A stretch of 33,150 bases of DNA from Sulfobacillus benefaciens. GTDB lineage: Bacteria; Bacillota; Sulfobacillia; Sulfobacillales; Sulfobacillaceae. The stretch spans positions 1-33,150 of the forward strand of contig PXYT01000041.1 of assembly GCA_003023725.1 (NCBI GenBank), read 5' to 3'. The first letter of the stretch is position 1. Each line of letters begins with the position of its first letter. The notes below the pieces were generated by a model. It had not been told where the DNA came from, did not search any database, and saw only the letters and a program-made list of their open reading frames with translations. Below, in pieces: positions 5,770-12,364 of the stretch. A program made the translations under genes and the position numbers.

Positions 5770-5810
5770 AAGTCTGGTTGCAATCTTTTGAATATGGAGG
5801 AGGGAAGGCC

Positions 5811-6950
5811 ATGGATTTTGAATTGACGCCAGAGCAAAGAGAACTCAAAGAATGGGCTCATACCTTCGCGGAAAAGGAAATTCGGCCTCAAGCCGCTTAT
5901 TATGATGAACAAGAGGAGATGCCCTGGGACGTTCTCAAAAAGGCAGCCAAAGTCGGTCTCTTGTCCTACACTATCCCTGAAGAGTACGGCGGGAATGGAG
6001 TGCCGGACTTAATATCGAATCTTGTAGTGGGAGAAGAGTTGTTTTGGGGCTGTGCGGGTATTGCCACCGCCATTGGAGGAATCGGACTGGCATCTATCCC
6101 GATTTTAGAAATGGGAAACGAAGAACAAAAGAAGAAATGGCTGCCTTTGTTCTGCGATCCGGACCAGGTTCGTTTGGGGGCTATGTGTCTCACCGAGCCG
6201 GGAGCGGGTTCGGACGTGGTGAGTATGACAACCCGAGCCGTACGTGAGGGAGATGAATACGTTATCAACGGCATGAAAACGTTCATTACCAACGGCGGTA
6301 TTGCAGATGTCTATGTTGTTTTTGCCAAAACCAACCCCGAAGGCGGTTACGCGGGAGTGTCGGCCTTCGTGGTCGACGGAAAATCGCCGGGGATTTCTTC
6401 CGGCAAGAAGTTCAAAAAACTGGGTTTGCGGGCGAGTCACACCGCCGAAGTGCGGTTTGACGACGTGCGTGTTCCCGTGGAAAATCGACTGGGAGAGGAA
6501 AACATGGCTTTCATCGGTGCCATGAAAATGCTCGAGCATTCGAGACCCACTGTGGCTATTGCCGCAATTGGAGTGGCTCGCGCTGCATATGAGTACGCGC
6601 TGGAGTATTCCAAACAGCGTGTCCAATTCGGCAAACCGATTTACTATAATCAGGGTATATCATTTACTTTGGCGGATATGCTGACGAAAATCGAAGCCGG
6701 CCGTCTGTTGGCTTACCGAGCGGCATGGTTGGCCGATAGGGGGAAATCCTGCAATATGGAAGGATCTATGGCTAAAGCCTATTGCGGGGATTTGGCCATG
6801 GAAGTGGCGACCAATGCGGTCCAAATTTTGGGAGGATACGGTTACATGCGTGATTATCCCGTTGAGAAATGGATGCGGGACGCGAAAATCATGTCGATTT
6901 ATGAGGGAACCACACAGATCCAAAAGCGGGTCATGGCCGGACTGATGTGA
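5811..6950 (+). CDS. Acyl-CoA dehydrogenase
   Basis: 379 residues, the normal size of short/medium-chain FAD-dependent acyl-CoA dehydrogenases, which introduce the trans-2 double bond in beta-oxidation. Visible signatures are the N-terminal MDFELTPEQRELKEW, the FAD-site segment LTEPGAGSD, KTFITNGG in the beta domain, and C-terminal QILGGYGYMRDYPVEKWMRD. The likely catalytic base is E365 in IYEGTTQIQ. The ATG at 5811 has GGAGGAGGGAAGG upstream; an upstream TTG in the same frame lacks support. An SCP2-domain gene and a thiolase follow, so this is a fatty-acid or branched-chain acyl-CoA degradation operon. The chain-length preference cannot be read from sequence. Confidence 0.93.
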   Translation: MDFELTPEQRELKEWAHTFAEKEIRPQAAYYDEQEEMPWDVLKKAAKVGLLSYTIPEEYGGNGVPDLISNLVVGEELFWGCAGIATAIGGIGLASIPILEMGNEEQKKKWLPLFCDPDQVRLGAMCLTEPGAGSDVVSMTTRAVREGDEYVINGMKTFITNGGIADVYVVFAKTNPEGGYAGVSAFVVDGKSPGISSGKKFKKLGLRASHTAEVRFDDVRVPVENRLGEENMAFIGAMKMLEHSRPTVAIAAIGVARAAYEYALEYSKQRVQFGKPIYYNQGISFTLADMLTKIEAGRLLAYRAAWLADRGKSCNMEGSMAKAYCGDLAMEVATNAVQILGGYGYMRDYPVEKWMRDAKIMSIYEGTTQIQKRVMAGLM

Positions 6951-7027
6951 AGTCGGTATAAACTGCCACACTGCAATCTTAAAGGCGGGGAAAAGGGCAC
7001 TAACAGACTTTCAAGGAGGGTGCAACA

Positions 7028-7351
7028 ATGACAACGAAAGAAGTTTTTGAGGAAATGCAACAGCGGCTAAGCCAGAAGGATAGTGCTCAGCTCGCCGGTT
7101 CACAAGGAGTCTACCAGTTTATGCTGACCGGAGAGGATGCGGCTGAGTATTTCGTGAGAGTAGGCAGCGATGGCGTGCGGGTTGAAGCCGGAACGGCGGA
7201 GGATGCCGCGGTCACCGTGACGATGACGGCTGACGACTTCAAAGATCTTGCGGGTGGCAAGCTCAATCCAATGAGCGCTTTTATGGGCGGAAAACTATCG
7301 GTGACCGGCGATATGAGTATGGCCTTAAAACTGCAAACACTCATTGGCTAG
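7028..7351 (+). CDS. SCP2 sterol-binding domain protein
   Basis: 107 residues forming a single SCP2 domain. The C-terminal half shows the typical pattern: VTVTMTADDFKDLAGGKLNP, then AFMGGKLSVTGDMSMALKL. SCP2 proteins bind acyl chains or acyl-CoA in a hydrophobic tunnel and often accompany beta-oxidation genes. The ATG at 7028 follows CAAGGAGGG with good spacing. Lying between an acyl-CoA dehydrogenase and a thiolase, it probably acts as an acyl-CoA carrier; that role is inference. Confidence 0.88.
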   Translation: MTTKEVFEEMQQRLSQKDSAQLAGSQGVYQFMLTGEDAAEYFVRVGSDGVRVEAGTAEDAAVTVTMTADDFKDLAGGKLNPMSAFMGGKLSVTGDMSMALKLQTLIG

Positions 7352-7390
7352 ACGAGGGCGGACACATGCGGCAAAGAGAGGGTGAAAGAT

Positions 7391-8533
7391 ATGGGGGAAG
7401 CCTACATTGTCGACGCGGTGAGAACGCCCTTCGGGCGTCGTAACGGCATTCTTAAGGATGTGCGGCCGGACGATTTGGCTGCACAGACGCTGAAACAACT
7501 GGTGTCGCGAACTCACACGGATCCGGCAGTCATTGAGGATGTCCGGATGGGATGCGTCACTCAGGTGGGAGAACAAGGTTTGAATATTGGACGCTTGGCG
7601 CCTTTGATTGCAGGGTTTCCGGTTGAGGTTCCCGGAGCGGCCGTAAACCGTATGTGCGCATCCAGCTTGGAAACGGTAAACCAGGCCGCGCAGGCGATTA
7701 AAGCGGAAATGCATGATGTGGTGATTGCTGCAGGGGTAGAGTCAATGAGTCGGGTTCCGATGGGCTCGGATGGATCGACTTTCAGCGACAATCTCTTGGC
7801 CCAATATCAAATTGTGCCCCAGGGCATTTCGGCCGAGTTGATTGCTCAAAAGTGGCAATTGAACCGGGATGAGTTGGATGCTTATTCCTACCAAAGTCAT
7901 ATGCGGGCTATCAGTTCACAACATGAGGGGTATTTCGAGAAGGAGACGTTTGATGTACCCGTACCGGACGCTGACAATAAGGTGCGTACTGTGCGGGTCG
8001 ATGAGGGGCCTCGCCCGGAAACGAGCATAGAAAAAATGGGGACTCTGCGTCCTGCGTTCAAACCCGACGGGGTAGTAACCGCTGGGAATTCCAGCCAGAT
8101 CACGGATGGAGCCAGTGCCCTTTTGTTGGCATCGGAAGAGGCGGTTAAACGTTACGGGTATTCTCCGAGGGCTCGCGTGGTGGCTATGAGTGTCGTCGGG
8201 GTGGACCCCGTCATGATGTTAACCGGTCCGATTCCCGCGACCCGCAAGGTTCTTGACAAGGCGGGGTTGCGGGTGGATGACATTGATGTTTTTGAGGTGA
8301 ACGAAGCTTTTGCGTCCGTAGTTTTGGCGTGGGGCAAAGAGTACAATCCTGATTGGGCGAAAGTGAATCCGCATGGAGGTGCTATTGCCATTGGTCATCC
8401 CCTGGGGGCCTCCGGGGGACGGTTGGTGATGACGGCCTTAAATCATCTGGAGGAAACGCATGGTCGTTATGGACTTATCACGATGTGTATCGGCTGGGGA
8501 ATGGGAGTGGCCACCATCATCGAACGGCTTTGA
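7391..8533 (+). CDS. Acetyl-CoA acetyltransferase (thiolase)
   Basis: 380 residues of the thiolase II family, which cleaves 3-ketoacyl-CoA or condenses acetyl-CoA. The acyl-accepting cysteine is C89 (NRMCASS). The other active-site elements are VNEAFA, H336 in GHPLGASGGR and the second cysteine C366 in CIGWGMG. Most thiolases have CIGGGMG there, so Trp replaces a glycine beside the active site. ATG at 7391 is preferred over an in-frame GTG at 7382 because GAGAGG is correctly spaced only for the ATG. Third gene of the lipid operon, 39 bases after the SCP2 gene. A strong terminator follows. Confidence 0.93.
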   Translation: MGEAYIVDAVRTPFGRRNGILKDVRPDDLAAQTLKQLVSRTHTDPAVIEDVRMGCVTQVGEQGLNIGRLAPLIAGFPVEVPGAAVNRMCASSLETVNQAAQAIKAEMHDVVIAAGVESMSRVPMGSDGSTFSDNLLAQYQIVPQGISAELIAQKWQLNRDELDAYSYQSHMRAISSQHEGYFEKETFDVPVPDADNKVRTVRVDEGPRPETSIEKMGTLRPAFKPDGVVTAGNSSQITDGASALLLASEEAVKRYGYSPRARVVAMSVVGVDPVMMLTGPIPATRKVLDKAGLRVDDIDVFEVNEAFASVVLAWGKEYNPDWAKVNPHGGAIAIGHPLGASGGRLVMTALNHLEETHGRYGLITMCIGWGMGVATIIERL

Positions 8534-8562: not shown

Positions 8563-8597
8563 GAGAAAAGCCCGAACCACTGGTTCGGGCTTTTCTC
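8563..8597. terminator. Bidirectional rho-independent terminator
   Basis: A perfect 16-bp stem: 8563-8578 pairs with 8582-8597 around a 3-base loop. One arm begins GAGAAAAGCCCG and the other ends in CTTTTCTC, giving A-rich and T-rich flanks for both strands. It lies between the convergent thiolase and beta-propeller genes and can stop transcription from both sides. Confidence 0.85.
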
Positions 8598-8608: not shown

Positions 8609-10132
8609 TCAGTTAGGCTGGGCCTGGGCCTGCGACGGCGACTTAGATCCCTGATTCGGTGGAATCACAAAAATCGACCACCCGTTGCTGTATCCCGCCA
8701 GAATCTGGTGATTGCCAATGGCCTGGAGAGGATACGGAGCGGAGGTGCCGGCTCCCATGTTGGCCGGTGTGTTAATAGCTTGCCAACTGGAATCGGCTTT
8801 AACCCAGCGGTATATGGTCCCTGTGGGCGAACCATAAAGCAAGTCGCCATTGGGAGAAGAGGCCAGTTGTCCGACGCCGACCTGCTGACCGTTACTGGGA
8901 GCGGCAATGGCTGTCCAGCGGCGTGCCGTTGGCGAATATCGCACGAGTACGGGATTGGACAAGTTGACCAGGGCAGAAATGCCGCCGGACGGTGACATCA
9001 CCATACTCGAAGGAGCTGCTCCCAACGCGGGGAAGTGCGGAAGTTGCTGCCAGCTTTGGCCTCCGTTTACGGTTTCTAATATCGGCCCTATTCCGTTGCC
9101 GGAAATCGGGACCAAAGCCACGGTGATTTGTCTGGGATTGGTGGGGTTTACGGCAAAGTCTTCTACCTGCCAGCGTTGCGTGTGGATCGACAACAGGCTA
9201 TGCCAATTCACCCCATTTGGGCTCTCTTGCAAGGTTCCGTTTATAATGGCCCAATACTGATGATTCATGGCCACGACATTGTTAAACGCGACCGCTCCCA
9301 TGCCCCACGGTTTCCAGCTTCGCCCTCGGTTGGTGCTGACATAACCGGTGGATTCGCCCGACGCGTTTTCCTCAACCAACAAGACGTCCTGGGGATTGGA
9401 AGGCAGCGCGGAAATTGTGTCAATCACCCTGTGTGTCGCCGAAGCGGGTCCGGGTGACGCTGCCCAATAGGCTTTCTTTTGGCCGTGAAGCACGGTCCAG
9501 GTGTTATTGTGCGTCAGATAAATATAGGAGCCGGCGTCGGCAAACGAAGTAATGGGGGTAGGCAGTCCGGGATGCCATGTTCCTTTTAACGCGACCGAAG
9601 TCGGGTGTGGGCTGATCACCTGTCCATTGGTTGCATTCTTGCCGACAAAGTCATAGACGGGCGTTCCCTGCGCAAAGAGCGTTCCCCCCAGTACCCGCCG
9701 CCGGTTATCGAGCTTTAGGACGAGTGACGTTCCAGTGATCTGGCCCAAAGCAAATTTACCGGAGAGCGTGAGGGCATGACCCGTAGGTATTGCCATGGGA
9801 TACTGGTTGTATACCGGAGACATGTTGATAACTTGCACCCGTTCATCGGAAAATTGCTGCAATACCTGTTTTATGGACGCGGAAAGAGCCGGTGCGGCAA
9901 GAGGCCGTGCTCCGCTGGACAACTGAGTGTGACTAATCGGATGAATATTAGGTAAAATTAAGAACCCCGCCACTGAAGCGGCAACGGCACCAATGGCAGC
10001 CCGGCGAACATAGTTTTGACGGCGCACAACCTTTTTAGGATGCCAGTTGGTGGAATCAAAATAGAGACCTAATCCCTGCCCCAAGGCGTGATCCAGTTGT
10101 TCCCCGATTTTGTTCGGCGAATGCTCTTTCAT
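8609..10132 (-). CDS. Membrane-anchored beta-propeller protein, putative anti-sigma partner
   Basis: 507 residues. A cytosolic N-terminus of about 44 residues ends in a basic patch (KKVVRRQNYVRR). One transmembrane helix follows at about 45-62, then a large extracytoplasmic region. The outer part contains BNR/sortilin-type repeats such as VSTNRGRSW and TVNGGQSWQQL, which build beta-propellers. Its start (ATG 10132) overlaps the stop of the ECF sigma gene as ATGA, with GGAGGG upstream. This coupling and topology suggest an anti-sigma factor or surface sensor. However, the cytosolic part lacks the zinc-binding HxxxCxxC motif of classic ZAS anti-sigma proteins. The function is inferred from context. 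Confidence 0.7.
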   Translation of the reverse strand: MKEHSPNKIGEQLDHALGQGLGLYFDSTNWHPKKVVRRQNYVRRAAIGAVAASVAGFLILPNIHPISHTQLSSGARPLAAPALSASIKQVLQQFSDERVQVINMSPVYNQYPMAIPTGHALTLSGKFALGQITGTSLVLKLDNRRRVLGGTLFAQGTPVYDFVGKNATNGQVISPHPTSVALKGTWHPGLPTPITSFADAGSYIYLTHNNTWTVLHGQKKAYWAASPGPASATHRVIDTISALPSNPQDVLLVEENASGESTGYVSTNRGRSWKPWGMGAVAFNNVVAMNHQYWAIINGTLQESPNGVNWHSLLSIHTQRWQVEDFAVNPTNPRQITVALVPISGNGIGPILETVNGGQSWQQLPHFPALGAAPSSMVMSPSGGISALVNLSNPVLVRYSPTARRWTAIAAPSNGQQVGVGQLASSPNGDLLYGSPTGTIYRWVKADSSWQAINTPANMGAGTSAPYPLQAIGNHQILAGYSNGWSIFVIPPNQGSKSPSQAQAQPN

Positions 10133-10665
10133 TGCAGTCCCTCCTTCCAAGTCGGTTCAAGAAGGGGACGCAGATGTTGGCGTGCACGGTAGAGGCGGGT
10201 TTTAACCACTTGTTCGCTGACACCCAGTGCTGTGGCTGTCTCCTTTAAGGAGCGGTCCATATAATAGAACAGCAAAATACACTGACGTTCGGCGACACCT
10301 AATTGCATAACCGCTTGCAGCACATTCATGTCATCTATTAACAAGGGAATTTCATCAACTGCAGACGGATGCGTCGATTCCAAAATATCCGTGGGATCTT
10401 CGGGATGGCGTTTGTAATAGCGCATTTTGTCTCGGCACAGATTGGTCAGAGTATGGAACAACAGGGCGGGAGTGACATTATCCATGCCTCGGCGCATGGC
10501 ATGCCGCCACAATCGGACAAATGCCTCCTGAGTCACGTCTTCCGCATCTCCCCGGACGTGAAGGGTAACGAACGCGTAGCGTAATGCCTTGTCTCCATAA
10601 TCTTCCATAAACTCCGTAAAATGTCGTTCGTCTAGGGCGTTCGTAAACGGCATCCCCTTTTCCAC
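10129..10665 (-). CDS. ECF-type RNA polymerase sigma factor
   Basis: 178 residues. Region 2 covers about residues 20-55 and contains GDAEDVTQEAFVRLW. Region 4 lies near the C-terminus, with LKETATALGVSEQVVKTRLY as the helix-turn-helix. There is no region 1 or 3, as in ECF sigma factors. GTG at 10665 is used here; ATG at 10653 is a possible alternative, and neither has a perfect Shine-Dalgarno sequence. It is translationally coupled to the membrane beta-propeller gene downstream. An ECF-like promoter just upstream suggests autoregulation. Confidence 0.88.
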   Translation of the reverse strand: MEKGMPFTNALDERHFTEFMEDYGDKALRYAFVTLHVRGDAEDVTQEAFVRLWRHAMRRGMDNVTPALLFHTLTNLCRDKMRYYKRHPEDPTDILESTHPSAVDEIPLLIDDMNVLQAVMQLGVAERQCILLFYYMDRSLKETATALGVSEQVVKTRLYRARQHLRPLLEPTWKEGLQ

Positions 10666-10686
10666 ATTCTCTTCTCATTAAAACAT

Positions 10687-10713
10687 AACGTCGCCAGGTG
10701 TGGGAAGGTTACC
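10687..10713 (-). promoter_or_regulatory. Candidate ECF-type promoter of the sigma operon
   Basis: Minus strand reads GGTAACC (10713-10707), then 16 bases, then CGTT (10690-10687). This resembles the AAC-plus-CGT pattern of many ECF promoters (for example Bacillus SigW: TGAAAC-N16-CGTA), with one extra base of spacing counted from AAC. It lies directly upstream of the sigma gene. Confidence 0.4.
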
Positions 10714-10758: not shown

Positions 10759-11964
10759 TTAAACCGCAGGCCAAGTGCGGGAGCGAAATCGGTAAAGAGA
10801 GTAATAAAGCCACAAGGCGTCGAAAGCAAATAAGATGGATGTGACGTAAAAGACGGTTTCGATGCGCCAGAGGCTACTAACGAATCCTCCCAGCAAGGGA
10901 CCGGCCAAATTGCCGGCGAACATGAAGCTGCTGTTAAAACCAAAGGCACGGCCCTGAAGAAATGTCGGCGTATAGCGCTGGATCAGCACCTGAACCGAGG
11001 GCAGTAATCCTCCCACCGCCAACCCTAAAATCAGCCGCAGACCCATAAGCTGATAGGCATTTTGGACATAAGCCTGAGGAAGATAAAGAAAGGCGGCAAT
11101 CACGAGGGAAGCCAGCAAAACTTTTTGGGCGCCGATTCGGTCAGCTAGCCGTCCCAGACGGGGCGCACTGATAATATTGCCAAGCCCAATGGCCGCAAAA
11201 GTTGCTCCGGCGAGCGTGGAGATATGAGCCGAATGGGGTTGCAATTGACGAACATAGATAGTGACGATGGGTTCGATGCTGAGGTATCCCATCTGAATTA
11301 CCATGGTCACTACGAACAGCGGTAAAATAATACCGGTATCACGAACTTTGCGAAGGAATTCTCGGTCCGACATCCGGCTTGCCGATGGGCTGGGACGAAA
11401 CTGTTCCTTGACAAAGAAAATGACGACGATTGTGGCAAGAATCTGCAAAATCCCTGTTAAAAAGAAGACGTGGCGAATACCAATGGTGTCGGCCAACACG
11501 CCTCCTAAAAACGGGCCGATTAAATTTCCGGCGACGGCTCCGGTTTGGAGAGTGCCCAAGGCTCGCCCGGCATGTTCCGGCGGGGTTTGGGTTGCCTGCA
11601 AGGCTGTGGCTGAGACAATGAATCCGGCAACCGCACCCAAAAGTCCCCGCAGTAGGAAGAGTTGCCAAACGTTTTGCGCCAATCCCATGGCAGCCATAAC
11701 GACCGCCATACCTGCTCCGCTGCGGATAAGGATAAACTTTCGTCCCACACGGTCCGCGAGGCGTCCCCACAAGGGCTGAACGAAAGCCGAAACCATAAAT
11801 GTCGCGGAAAAAACGATACCGGACCAGCGTTCAAGGTTGCTTAGCCGGTGAATGCCGAGTTCTTGAATGTATATCGGTAAAAAAGGAATGACAAGACTCA
11901 TGCTGGCTCCCATAATGAAGGTGGTGATCCACAAAATATAAAGATTGCGCTGCCATGTTTCCAT
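10759..11964 (-). CDS. MFS multidrug-type transporter (12 TM, DHA1-like)
   Basis: 401 residues, about twelve hydrophobic helices. The cytosolic loop 2-3 motif is GRLADRVGRKFIL and it is partly repeated in the second half as GRLADRIGAQKVL, the internal duplication of MFS proteins. Such proteins use the proton gradient to export drugs or metabolites. ATG at 11964 is chosen because GAGGAGAG precedes it and the membrane domain starts there (METWQRNLYILW). A longer open frame to 12201 has a non-family N-terminus. It lies upstream of the sigma operon on the same strand, but a separate ECF-like promoter sits between them. Substrate unknown. Confidence 0.88.
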   Translation of the reverse strand: METWQRNLYILWITTFIMGASMSLVIPFLPIYIQELGIHRLSNLERWSGIVFSATFMVSAFVQPLWGRLADRVGRKFILIRSGAGMAVVMAAMGLAQNVWQLFLLRGLLGAVAGFIVSATALQATQTPPEHAGRALGTLQTGAVAGNLIGPFLGGVLADTIGIRHVFFLTGILQILATIVVIFFVKEQFRPSPSASRMSDREFLRKVRDTGIILPLFVVTMVIQMGYLSIEPIVTIYVRQLQPHSAHISTLAGATFAAIGLGNIISAPRLGRLADRIGAQKVLLASLVIAAFLYLPQAYVQNAYQLMGLRLILGLAVGGLLPSVQVLIQRYTPTFLQGRAFGFNSSFMFAGNLAGPLLGGFVSSLWRIETVFYVTSILFAFDALWLYYSLYRFRSRTWPAV

Positions 11965-12364
11965 TCGCTCTGCTCTCCTCAATAGGACTGCTCTTACTCT
12001 TAACCTCCGGGTGGTTTCCGGGGCGGTAAAACTTGTCCCGGTAACCATCGGGACGACACGGATCGCTGATATAAAGCATAGCTTAACCACAAGCGGGCAT
12101 GAACTTTCTTTTGGACTAGTCGGCCGATGACTGTGGACGATTTTTGAGTAGAATGCCCAGACCCAATGGTTGGTGCCGGCGATAATGCCGAATACTGACA
12201 CTGGAAATGATTTGGCTAATTCTTTAATGCCTTGTAGAATAATCCCAATATACTGCGTTAGAATTTGGGCATGGTTACGACTCGGCGTGGAAATGCCAGG
12301 ATAAAGGAGCTGACCAAAAATTCGGTTATCTTATTGGCTGCAGCCGAACAATGACAAGGGAGAT
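11965..12364. other. Divergent intergenic region
   Basis: About 400 bases separate the MFS gene from the 2H phosphoesterase gene. It holds a likely plus-strand promoter (listed) and a GGCTGCAGCC palindrome at 12336-12345, inside a slightly longer TTCGG...CCGAA inverted repeat ending 18 bases before the downstream start. No gene is seen. Confidence 0.5.
12212..12240 (+). promoter_or_regulatory. Sigma-A type promoter for the 2H phosphoesterase gene
   Basis: TTGGCT (12212-12217), a 17-base spacer and TAGAAT (12235-12240) match -35 and -10 boxes in four and five of six positions. Transcription would start near 12247, giving a leader of about 118 bases. Confidence 0.45.

Follow-up and report, generated by a model that had tools for sequence, protein, structure and literature searches.

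The window, that is, the whole stretch of 33,150 nucleotides of Sulfobacillus benefaciens DNA analysed here, carries on its reverse strand an ECF sigma factor gene and, overlapping it, the gene for a membrane protein that is probably its anti-sigma factor. The features of the locus are as follows:

8609..10132, reverse strand: putative anti-sigma factor gene, 507-residue product with one membrane helix and an extracellular propeller
8657..9592, reverse strand: propeller, residues 181-492 (AlphaFold2 model, Foldseek and VIA-align)
9605..9880, reverse strand: extracellular stalk/beta region, residues 85-176 (helix 85-94, then strands; AlphaFold2, block pLDDT 84-94)
9947..10000, reverse strand: membrane helix, about residues 45-62 (hydrophobicity scan)
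10001..10132, reverse strand: cytosolic tail, residues 1-44, the proposed sigma-binding segment; a basic stretch precedes the membrane helix
10037..10108, reverse strand: tail motif, residues 9-32, h-G-x2-h-D-x2-h ... h-x-F/W ... W-x-P (comparison of 39 tails)
10129..10132, reverse strand: ATGA overlap of sigma stop and partner start (read from both ORFs)
10129..10665, reverse strand: ECF sigma factor gene (GTG start as listed; Pfam and NCBIfam matches)
10420..10431, reverse strand: DxxR motif (D79, R82) of the sigma factor, region 2.4, placed by eye
10686..10712, reverse strand: predicted autoregulatory ECF promoter GTAACC-N16-CGTTA, kept upstream of the sigma gene

The sigma product is matched by the Pfam models Sigma70_r2 (E 9.1e-8) and Sigma70_r4_2 (E 1.2e-12) and lies over the cut-off of the NCBIfam model sigma70-ECF (TIGR02937); since regions 2 and 4 are both matched by models, the protein is an ECF sigma factor. 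Several of its relatives begin near MPF (about position 10653). The D and the R of the DxxR motif are both invariant in alignment A3 (38 rows), which leaves out the sigma gene of genome G008 (locus L045). At that locus the sigma gene (about 8697-9212) contains an internal TGA and the partner frame is open; either a mistake in the assembly or a sigma gene in decay could account for this. In the window, the sigma TGA (10129-10131) and the partner ATG (10130-10132) share the bases ATGA, the overlap that the original prediction had described, and both ORFs lie on the reverse strand. The partner has a single strongly hydrophobic window, from residue 42, which agrees with the one transmembrane helix and the short cytosolic tail that had been attributed to it.

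Convergent to the pair, on the forward strand (5778-8533), lie an acyl-CoA dehydrogenase-like ORF, recognised by eye, and a thiolase gene. Each of the two has relatives in 26 of the other 39 loci, a set with many short members; this neighbourhood is therefore old. Between the thiolase and partner genes is a GC-rich inverted repeat with A and T runs (about 8564-8597) which, read by eye, is probably a two-way terminator. Directly upstream of the sigma promoter lies a gene for an MFS transporter (10759-12201, reverse strand; best model MdtG, under cut-off). We rejected the transporter as a part of the system: it occurs in 5 of 40 loci only, the window included and several of the 40 being short contigs.

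The partner is present in 40 of the 42 genomes of the order (search at E <= 1e-10) and, at the same threshold, in none of the 112 other genomes searched in the class; the two genomes of the order without a match are 61% and 71% complete. There is one copy per genome, except for two genomes in which the partner is split across contigs. A relative of the sigma gene is found directly upstream of the partner gene, on the same strand, in all 39 testable loci, that of the window included. In the 40th partner-bearing genome (G030) the partner begins at a contig end, and there is no sigma match. Conserved pairing had been put forward as a test of the system, and adjacency in 39 of 39 loci means that the pairing is more than chance; judged from these sequences, the pair is old within the order. 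The start codon of the partner gene is at the -4 offset, giving the four-base overlap, in 31 of the 39 loci; overlapping translation is common among sigma/anti-sigma gene pairs. Alignment A2 leaves out L064, a locus cut by a contig end. Close matches to the sigma factor (E <= 1e-30) occur in 9 of 398 genomes sampled from the phylum, 3 of the 9 being within the order. Of the six outside it, five belong to one genus and have a 206-residue membrane partner, and in the sixth the downstream ORF is of 143 residues, without a strong hydrophobic stretch.

A different junction was seen at four loci of genus g12 (L069, L073, L074 and L075), where the partner frame is open right after the sigma TAG, in frame with the sigma gene, and contains no ATG, GTG or TTG before +39. 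Between L074 and L069, these 13 codons show nine synonymous and no nonsynonymous differences, and the other five pairs differ by 0-9 synonymous and 1-2 nonsynonymous changes; because the differences are mostly synonymous, they suggest that the codons are translated. The arrangement suggests either a CTG start right after the TAG or a read-through that would fuse the sigma and anti-sigma factors. In alignment A1, the four g12 tails were by choice started at codons ahead of the first ATG, and L072 has no nearby start codon.

The most hydrophobic 19-residue stretch of the partner starts at residue 40-49 in 39 of 39 proteins, and the tail ahead of it is conserved. D14 and P32 are present in all 39 tails, G10 in 36 and W30 in 33, and positions 13, 17, 23, 25 and 30 are hydrophobic throughout the 39. 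No Cys is found ahead of the membrane helix in any of the tails, that of the window included, and the HxxxCxxC zinc motif occurs in none of the 39 tails nor in any of the 38 full-length partner proteins; the absence of classic zinc anti-sigma motifs, noted at the outset for the window, thus extends to the whole set. The HxxxCxxC motif is also absent in some class I members. We take the 44-residue tail to be, most plausibly, a short, zinc-free sigma-binding tail. If it binds the sigma factor on its own, it would be among the shortest anti-sigma domains known; the sigma-binding segments of CnrY and Tt-TolB are similarly short. A class I anti-sigma domain has about 100 residues (101 +/- 33; PMC7406223), and the tail shows neither this size nor the zinc motif. 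Moreover, a profile of the tail found no match among the Pfam anti-sigma models (E up to 1) or among the solved anti-sigma chains in the PDB (E up to 10).

The tail might belong to class II, the CnrY-like anti-sigma domains, a reading that would be a sub-case of the sigma/anti-sigma interpretation and does not compete with it; we regard it as possible, though tentatively. Class II domains are short, under about 50 residues (PMC7406223), a limit within which the 44 residues of the tail fall, and the CnrY-type domain has two helices, wrapped around sigma regions 2 and 4, in the published complex (PMC7406223, PMC8103513, PMC4598750). The AlphaFold2 model of the partner (mean pLDDT 80.3) places two helices in the zinc-free tail, residues 9-21 and 32-53, around an extended linker, but with low confidence (block pLDDT 40-50), and helix 32-53 is largely the membrane helix. 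The hhalign score of the tail against CnrY, 6.4, is below the best of 60 shuffled controls, 11.8, and thus does not support membership of the CnrY family by sequence; the published classes share a binding mode and have very little sequence similarity (PMC7406223). CnrY, the membrane anti-sigma factor of CnrH, resembles the partner in its short cytosolic domain; in contrast, it has 95 residues in all, no propeller and a separate sensor, CnrX.

The closest precedent for the layout is the Tt-RpoE1/Tt-TolB pair of Thermoanaerobacter tengcongensis (PMC3397946). Tt-TolB has a 39-residue cytosolic tail, a membrane helix at residues 39-61 and a TolB domain outside, and its residues 1-39 bind Tt-RpoE1 in the yeast two-hybrid system (PMC3397946). 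Tt-RpoE1 is autoregulated from the promoter tGTTAC-N16-CGTC, whose -12 G is read by the D of its DxxR motif (PMC3397946). Both pairs have the sigma gene directly followed by the gene of the anti-sigma factor (putative in the window), a short tail, one membrane helix and a large ectodomain, together with a promoter with a 16-base spacer, predicted to be autoregulated here, and a DxxR motif in the sigma factor. Since Tt-TolB/Tt-RpoE1 has the same layout, the layout of the window pair is not new. The two differ in the -35 element (GTTAC there, GTAACC here), in the -10 element (CGTC there, CGTT(A) here) and in the gene junction, with a 2-base gap there and a 4-base overlap here. The proposal that the 44-residue segment may be a new type of sigma-binding domain goes further than the evidence: the tail has a conserved motif of its own and no match to a known domain, but the 39-residue tail of Tt-TolB is a precedent (PMC3397946), and the CnrY-type domains, too, are described as short.

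We also considered whether the tail is a portable module shared with other ECF partners. A profile of tail plus membrane helix also matched, in one genome, another protein encoded next to an ECF gene, whose ectodomain is different (G003, E 2.3e-4). Four of the five extra matches of this profile cover only the stretch beside and in the membrane. When 18 ECF partners and 1084 background ORFs were ranked with a cytosol-only profile, the G003 protein came 41st and the highest-placed other partner (L085) 16th among the rows from outside the family, where 15 background ORFs scored above L085; the idea of a shared module was rejected. The tail profile scored 13.24 against eight other short ECF-partner tails, the best shuffle scoring 13.08. 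These eight partners, all of the genus (L086, L087 and L089-L094), have short tails in the same layout and different outer parts, which form several groups without clear mutual similarity. Read by eye, their tails have acidic residues, LR-x2-F and then a hydrophobic-D/N-x2-R/K-W/L stretch. From these sequences, short tails on ECF partners look common in the genus.

Outside the membrane, the BNR-type propeller that had been predicted was recovered at about residues 181-492 by the AlphaFold2 model and by structure searches, although Pfam reports the BNR repeat below threshold only. The TolB domain is also a propeller; the ectodomain of Tt-TolB is of the TolB type and that of the window partner BNR/Ycf48-like. 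The best Foldseek match of the propeller is Ycf48 (E 3.4e-11, TM-score by target length 0.72), and among the 50 matches listed by VIA-align (Z 21.2-22.8), most over about residues 181-492, many are WD propellers. Sequence comparison, too, puts Ycf48 (PSII_BNR) closest among the solved propellers (E 1.2e-6), and the fold is the same. The window partner differs from Ycf48 in being membrane-anchored, with a cytosolic tail, and scores 14 bits, against the NCBIfam Ycf48 cut-off of 326; for PF14870, no match to the partner was reported up to E 10. The Sulfobacillus lineage is not known to be photosynthetic. Ligand sensing by the propeller is plausible. In Firmicutes, RsiV, the membrane anti-sigma factor of SigV in Bacillus subtilis, has an extracellular sensor part that binds lysozyme, the ligand triggering its proteolysis in the current model (PMC6066255, PMC4598750). 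Proteolysis has been demonstrated for RsiV, whereas it is an inferred possibility for the window partner. There is also a likeness: protective helices directly follow the membrane segment in RsiV, and the model of the window partner has an outer helix, 85-94, some 20 residues after that segment.

Upstream of the sigma gene, an exact GTAACC-N16-CGTT is found in 34 of the 39 loci, the other five regions having one or two mismatches or a 15-base spacer. In 38 aligned sites, each being the best match within its upstream region, AAC and GTT are invariant and most spacer and flank columns are at 32-60%. The sigma gene is thus predicted to be autoregulated from this promoter. A scan of the window's genome for GTAACC-N16-CGTTA gave 12 sites, and the reversed control gave 0; over eight genomes of the genus, the two counts were 69 and 17. 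With one more fixed base, 147 sites were counted in the 42 genomes of the order, against 19 in the control (sums made by hand), and 44 of the 147 fall in two genomes of one genus. These are G013 and G021 (genus g7), with 20 and 24 sites against 0 and 1 in the controls, and their predicted regulon is larger than that of any other genome of the order searched. This stricter pattern is found in none of 10 of the 42 genomes and is barely above control in several others (6 against 3 in G018, 4 against 2 in G024), and families f2 and f3 have three sites in eight genomes, two of which are the sigma promoter itself. On these counts, the exact site is scarce in the other families of the order.

The sites might be read by another ECF factor, this sigma gene being merely one of its targets. 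The window's genome has two further ECF genes (E <= 1e-4) and ECF promoters are alike; furthermore, the incomplete genome G007, in which neither the partner nor a close sigma match was found, has seven sites. However, the site is kept ahead of this sigma gene across the order, and in 21 loci around other ECF genes, six of them from outside the order, an exact site was found twice, both times behind the sigma gene and not before it. We thus consider it improbable that the sites serve another factor.

Taking the sites as belonging to the sigma factor of the pair, one of the 12 in the window's genome is the sigma promoter. Of the other 11, seven precede lipobox proteins, one a member of an L,D-transpeptidase family and one another secreted protein; the remaining two, whose distance to a gene is at least 184 bases, seem to be chance occurrences. 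All 12 of these sites were read, and 56 of the 69 in the genus; one set of 20 regions was partly picked by spacer similarity. From 74 distinct sites, 43 passed a filter that requires a first gene of at least 200 residues within 120 bases and drops sigma genes, and 31 failed it. A lipobox, by a home-made test, is found on 20 of these 43 first genes, which include orthologues and some loci chosen by the author, against 8 of 406 background ORFs, and a hydrophobic N-terminal stretch on 33 of the 43, against 111 of the 406, the background being taken from loci around the pair and not from whole genomes. With orthologues and chosen loci among the 43, p-values calculated for these comparisons come out too small. 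Twenty further loci were read separately, outside the 43-gene count. In G013, the gene behind the site has a hydrophobic N-terminal stretch at 10 of 19 sites, and a lipobox by the same test at none, although L190 has a likely one by eye. The predicted regulon is one of secreted proteins, largely lipoproteins in this genus.

The L,D-transpeptidase family lies behind an exact site in all eight genomes of the genus, its members being 60-81% identical to the protein of the window's genome; the G002 copy, in which the domains were identified, has YkuD and a peptidoglycan-binding domain. A second secreted family lies behind an exact site in seven of the eight genomes, and a Ycf48-like propeller lipoprotein in three of the eight. 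The sites of other genomes precede more Ycf48-like propellers, a SIMPL-domain protein, a MoxR-like ATPase and a DUF459/GDSL protein, and many predicted target proteins match no Pfam family. A search for the base rate of propellers scored short stretches, and a known propeller gene (G000 C89) is missing from its listing; we therefore do not claim that propellers are enriched in the regulon. The make-up of the regulon bears on another reading, in which the partner does not inhibit the sigma factor but is an envelope protein under the same control, such as an assembly factor. Its propeller is, by sequence and Foldseek, most like Ycf48, an assembly factor, and with several predicted regulon members being secreted Ycf48-like propellers, the propeller of the operon could be another effector. 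Yet most of the regulon propellers that were read have a lipobox at their start or a hydrophobic stretch close to it, whereas the 44-residue tail of the partner, conserved and with residues that never vary, is something that a mere anchor would not need; its translational overlap with the sigma gene, moreover, is of the kind generally known from sigma/anti-sigma pairs. We find this reading unlikely.

In our view, the membrane protein of the pair is most probably the anti-sigma factor of the ECF sigma factor, and its tail is short and zinc-free. Taking the pair, its conservation and likely topology, the promoter and the predicted regulon of the genus as read from sequence, we infer that the tail binds the sigma factor, that the propeller has a sensing role and that a signal leads to a release step. 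At rest, the 44-residue tail would tether the sigma factor to the membrane, possibly as a short amphipathic helix around D14 followed by the F/W...W-x-P segment beside the membrane. The outer propeller would sense the state of the envelope and, upon a signal, the anti-sigma factor would let the sigma factor go, either by regulated proteolysis or by a conformational change. A homologue of the site-2 protease is coded in the window's genome (Peptidase_M50, E 1.5e-63), and since Peptidase_M50 homologues are also found in 14 of 14 control genomes, such genes are near-universal. The freed sigma factor would transcribe its own operon and its regulon from GTAACC-N16-CGTT(A) promoters, giving proteins that are secreted or anchored in the membrane. 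In this genus these would largely be lipoproteins, with some propellers, and the L,D-transpeptidase of the regulon would cross-link peptidoglycan. A more specific version, to which we give little credence, is that the tail is a separate minimal anti-sigma class peculiar to the order, made of the D14 helix and the F/W...W-x-P segment, and that the sensing propeller is related in fold to the secreted propellers made under the sigma factor. If so, sensor and products would compete for the same envelope ligand, forming a self-limiting homeostat in which the product would copy the receptor in soluble or lipid-anchored form.

We found no description of a propeller anti-sigma factor in Sulfobacillus in the open-licence literature. 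What is added to the known systems is the order-wide conservation of the pair, the tail motif, the promoter and the envelope regulon, the last in this genus above all. In these acidophilic Firmicutes, the pair would act as an envelope regulator across the order, one whose promoter, regulon and putative sigma-binding segment can be tested, and its predicted regulon would tie it to the cross-linking of the cell wall and to surface lipoproteins that work at very low pH.
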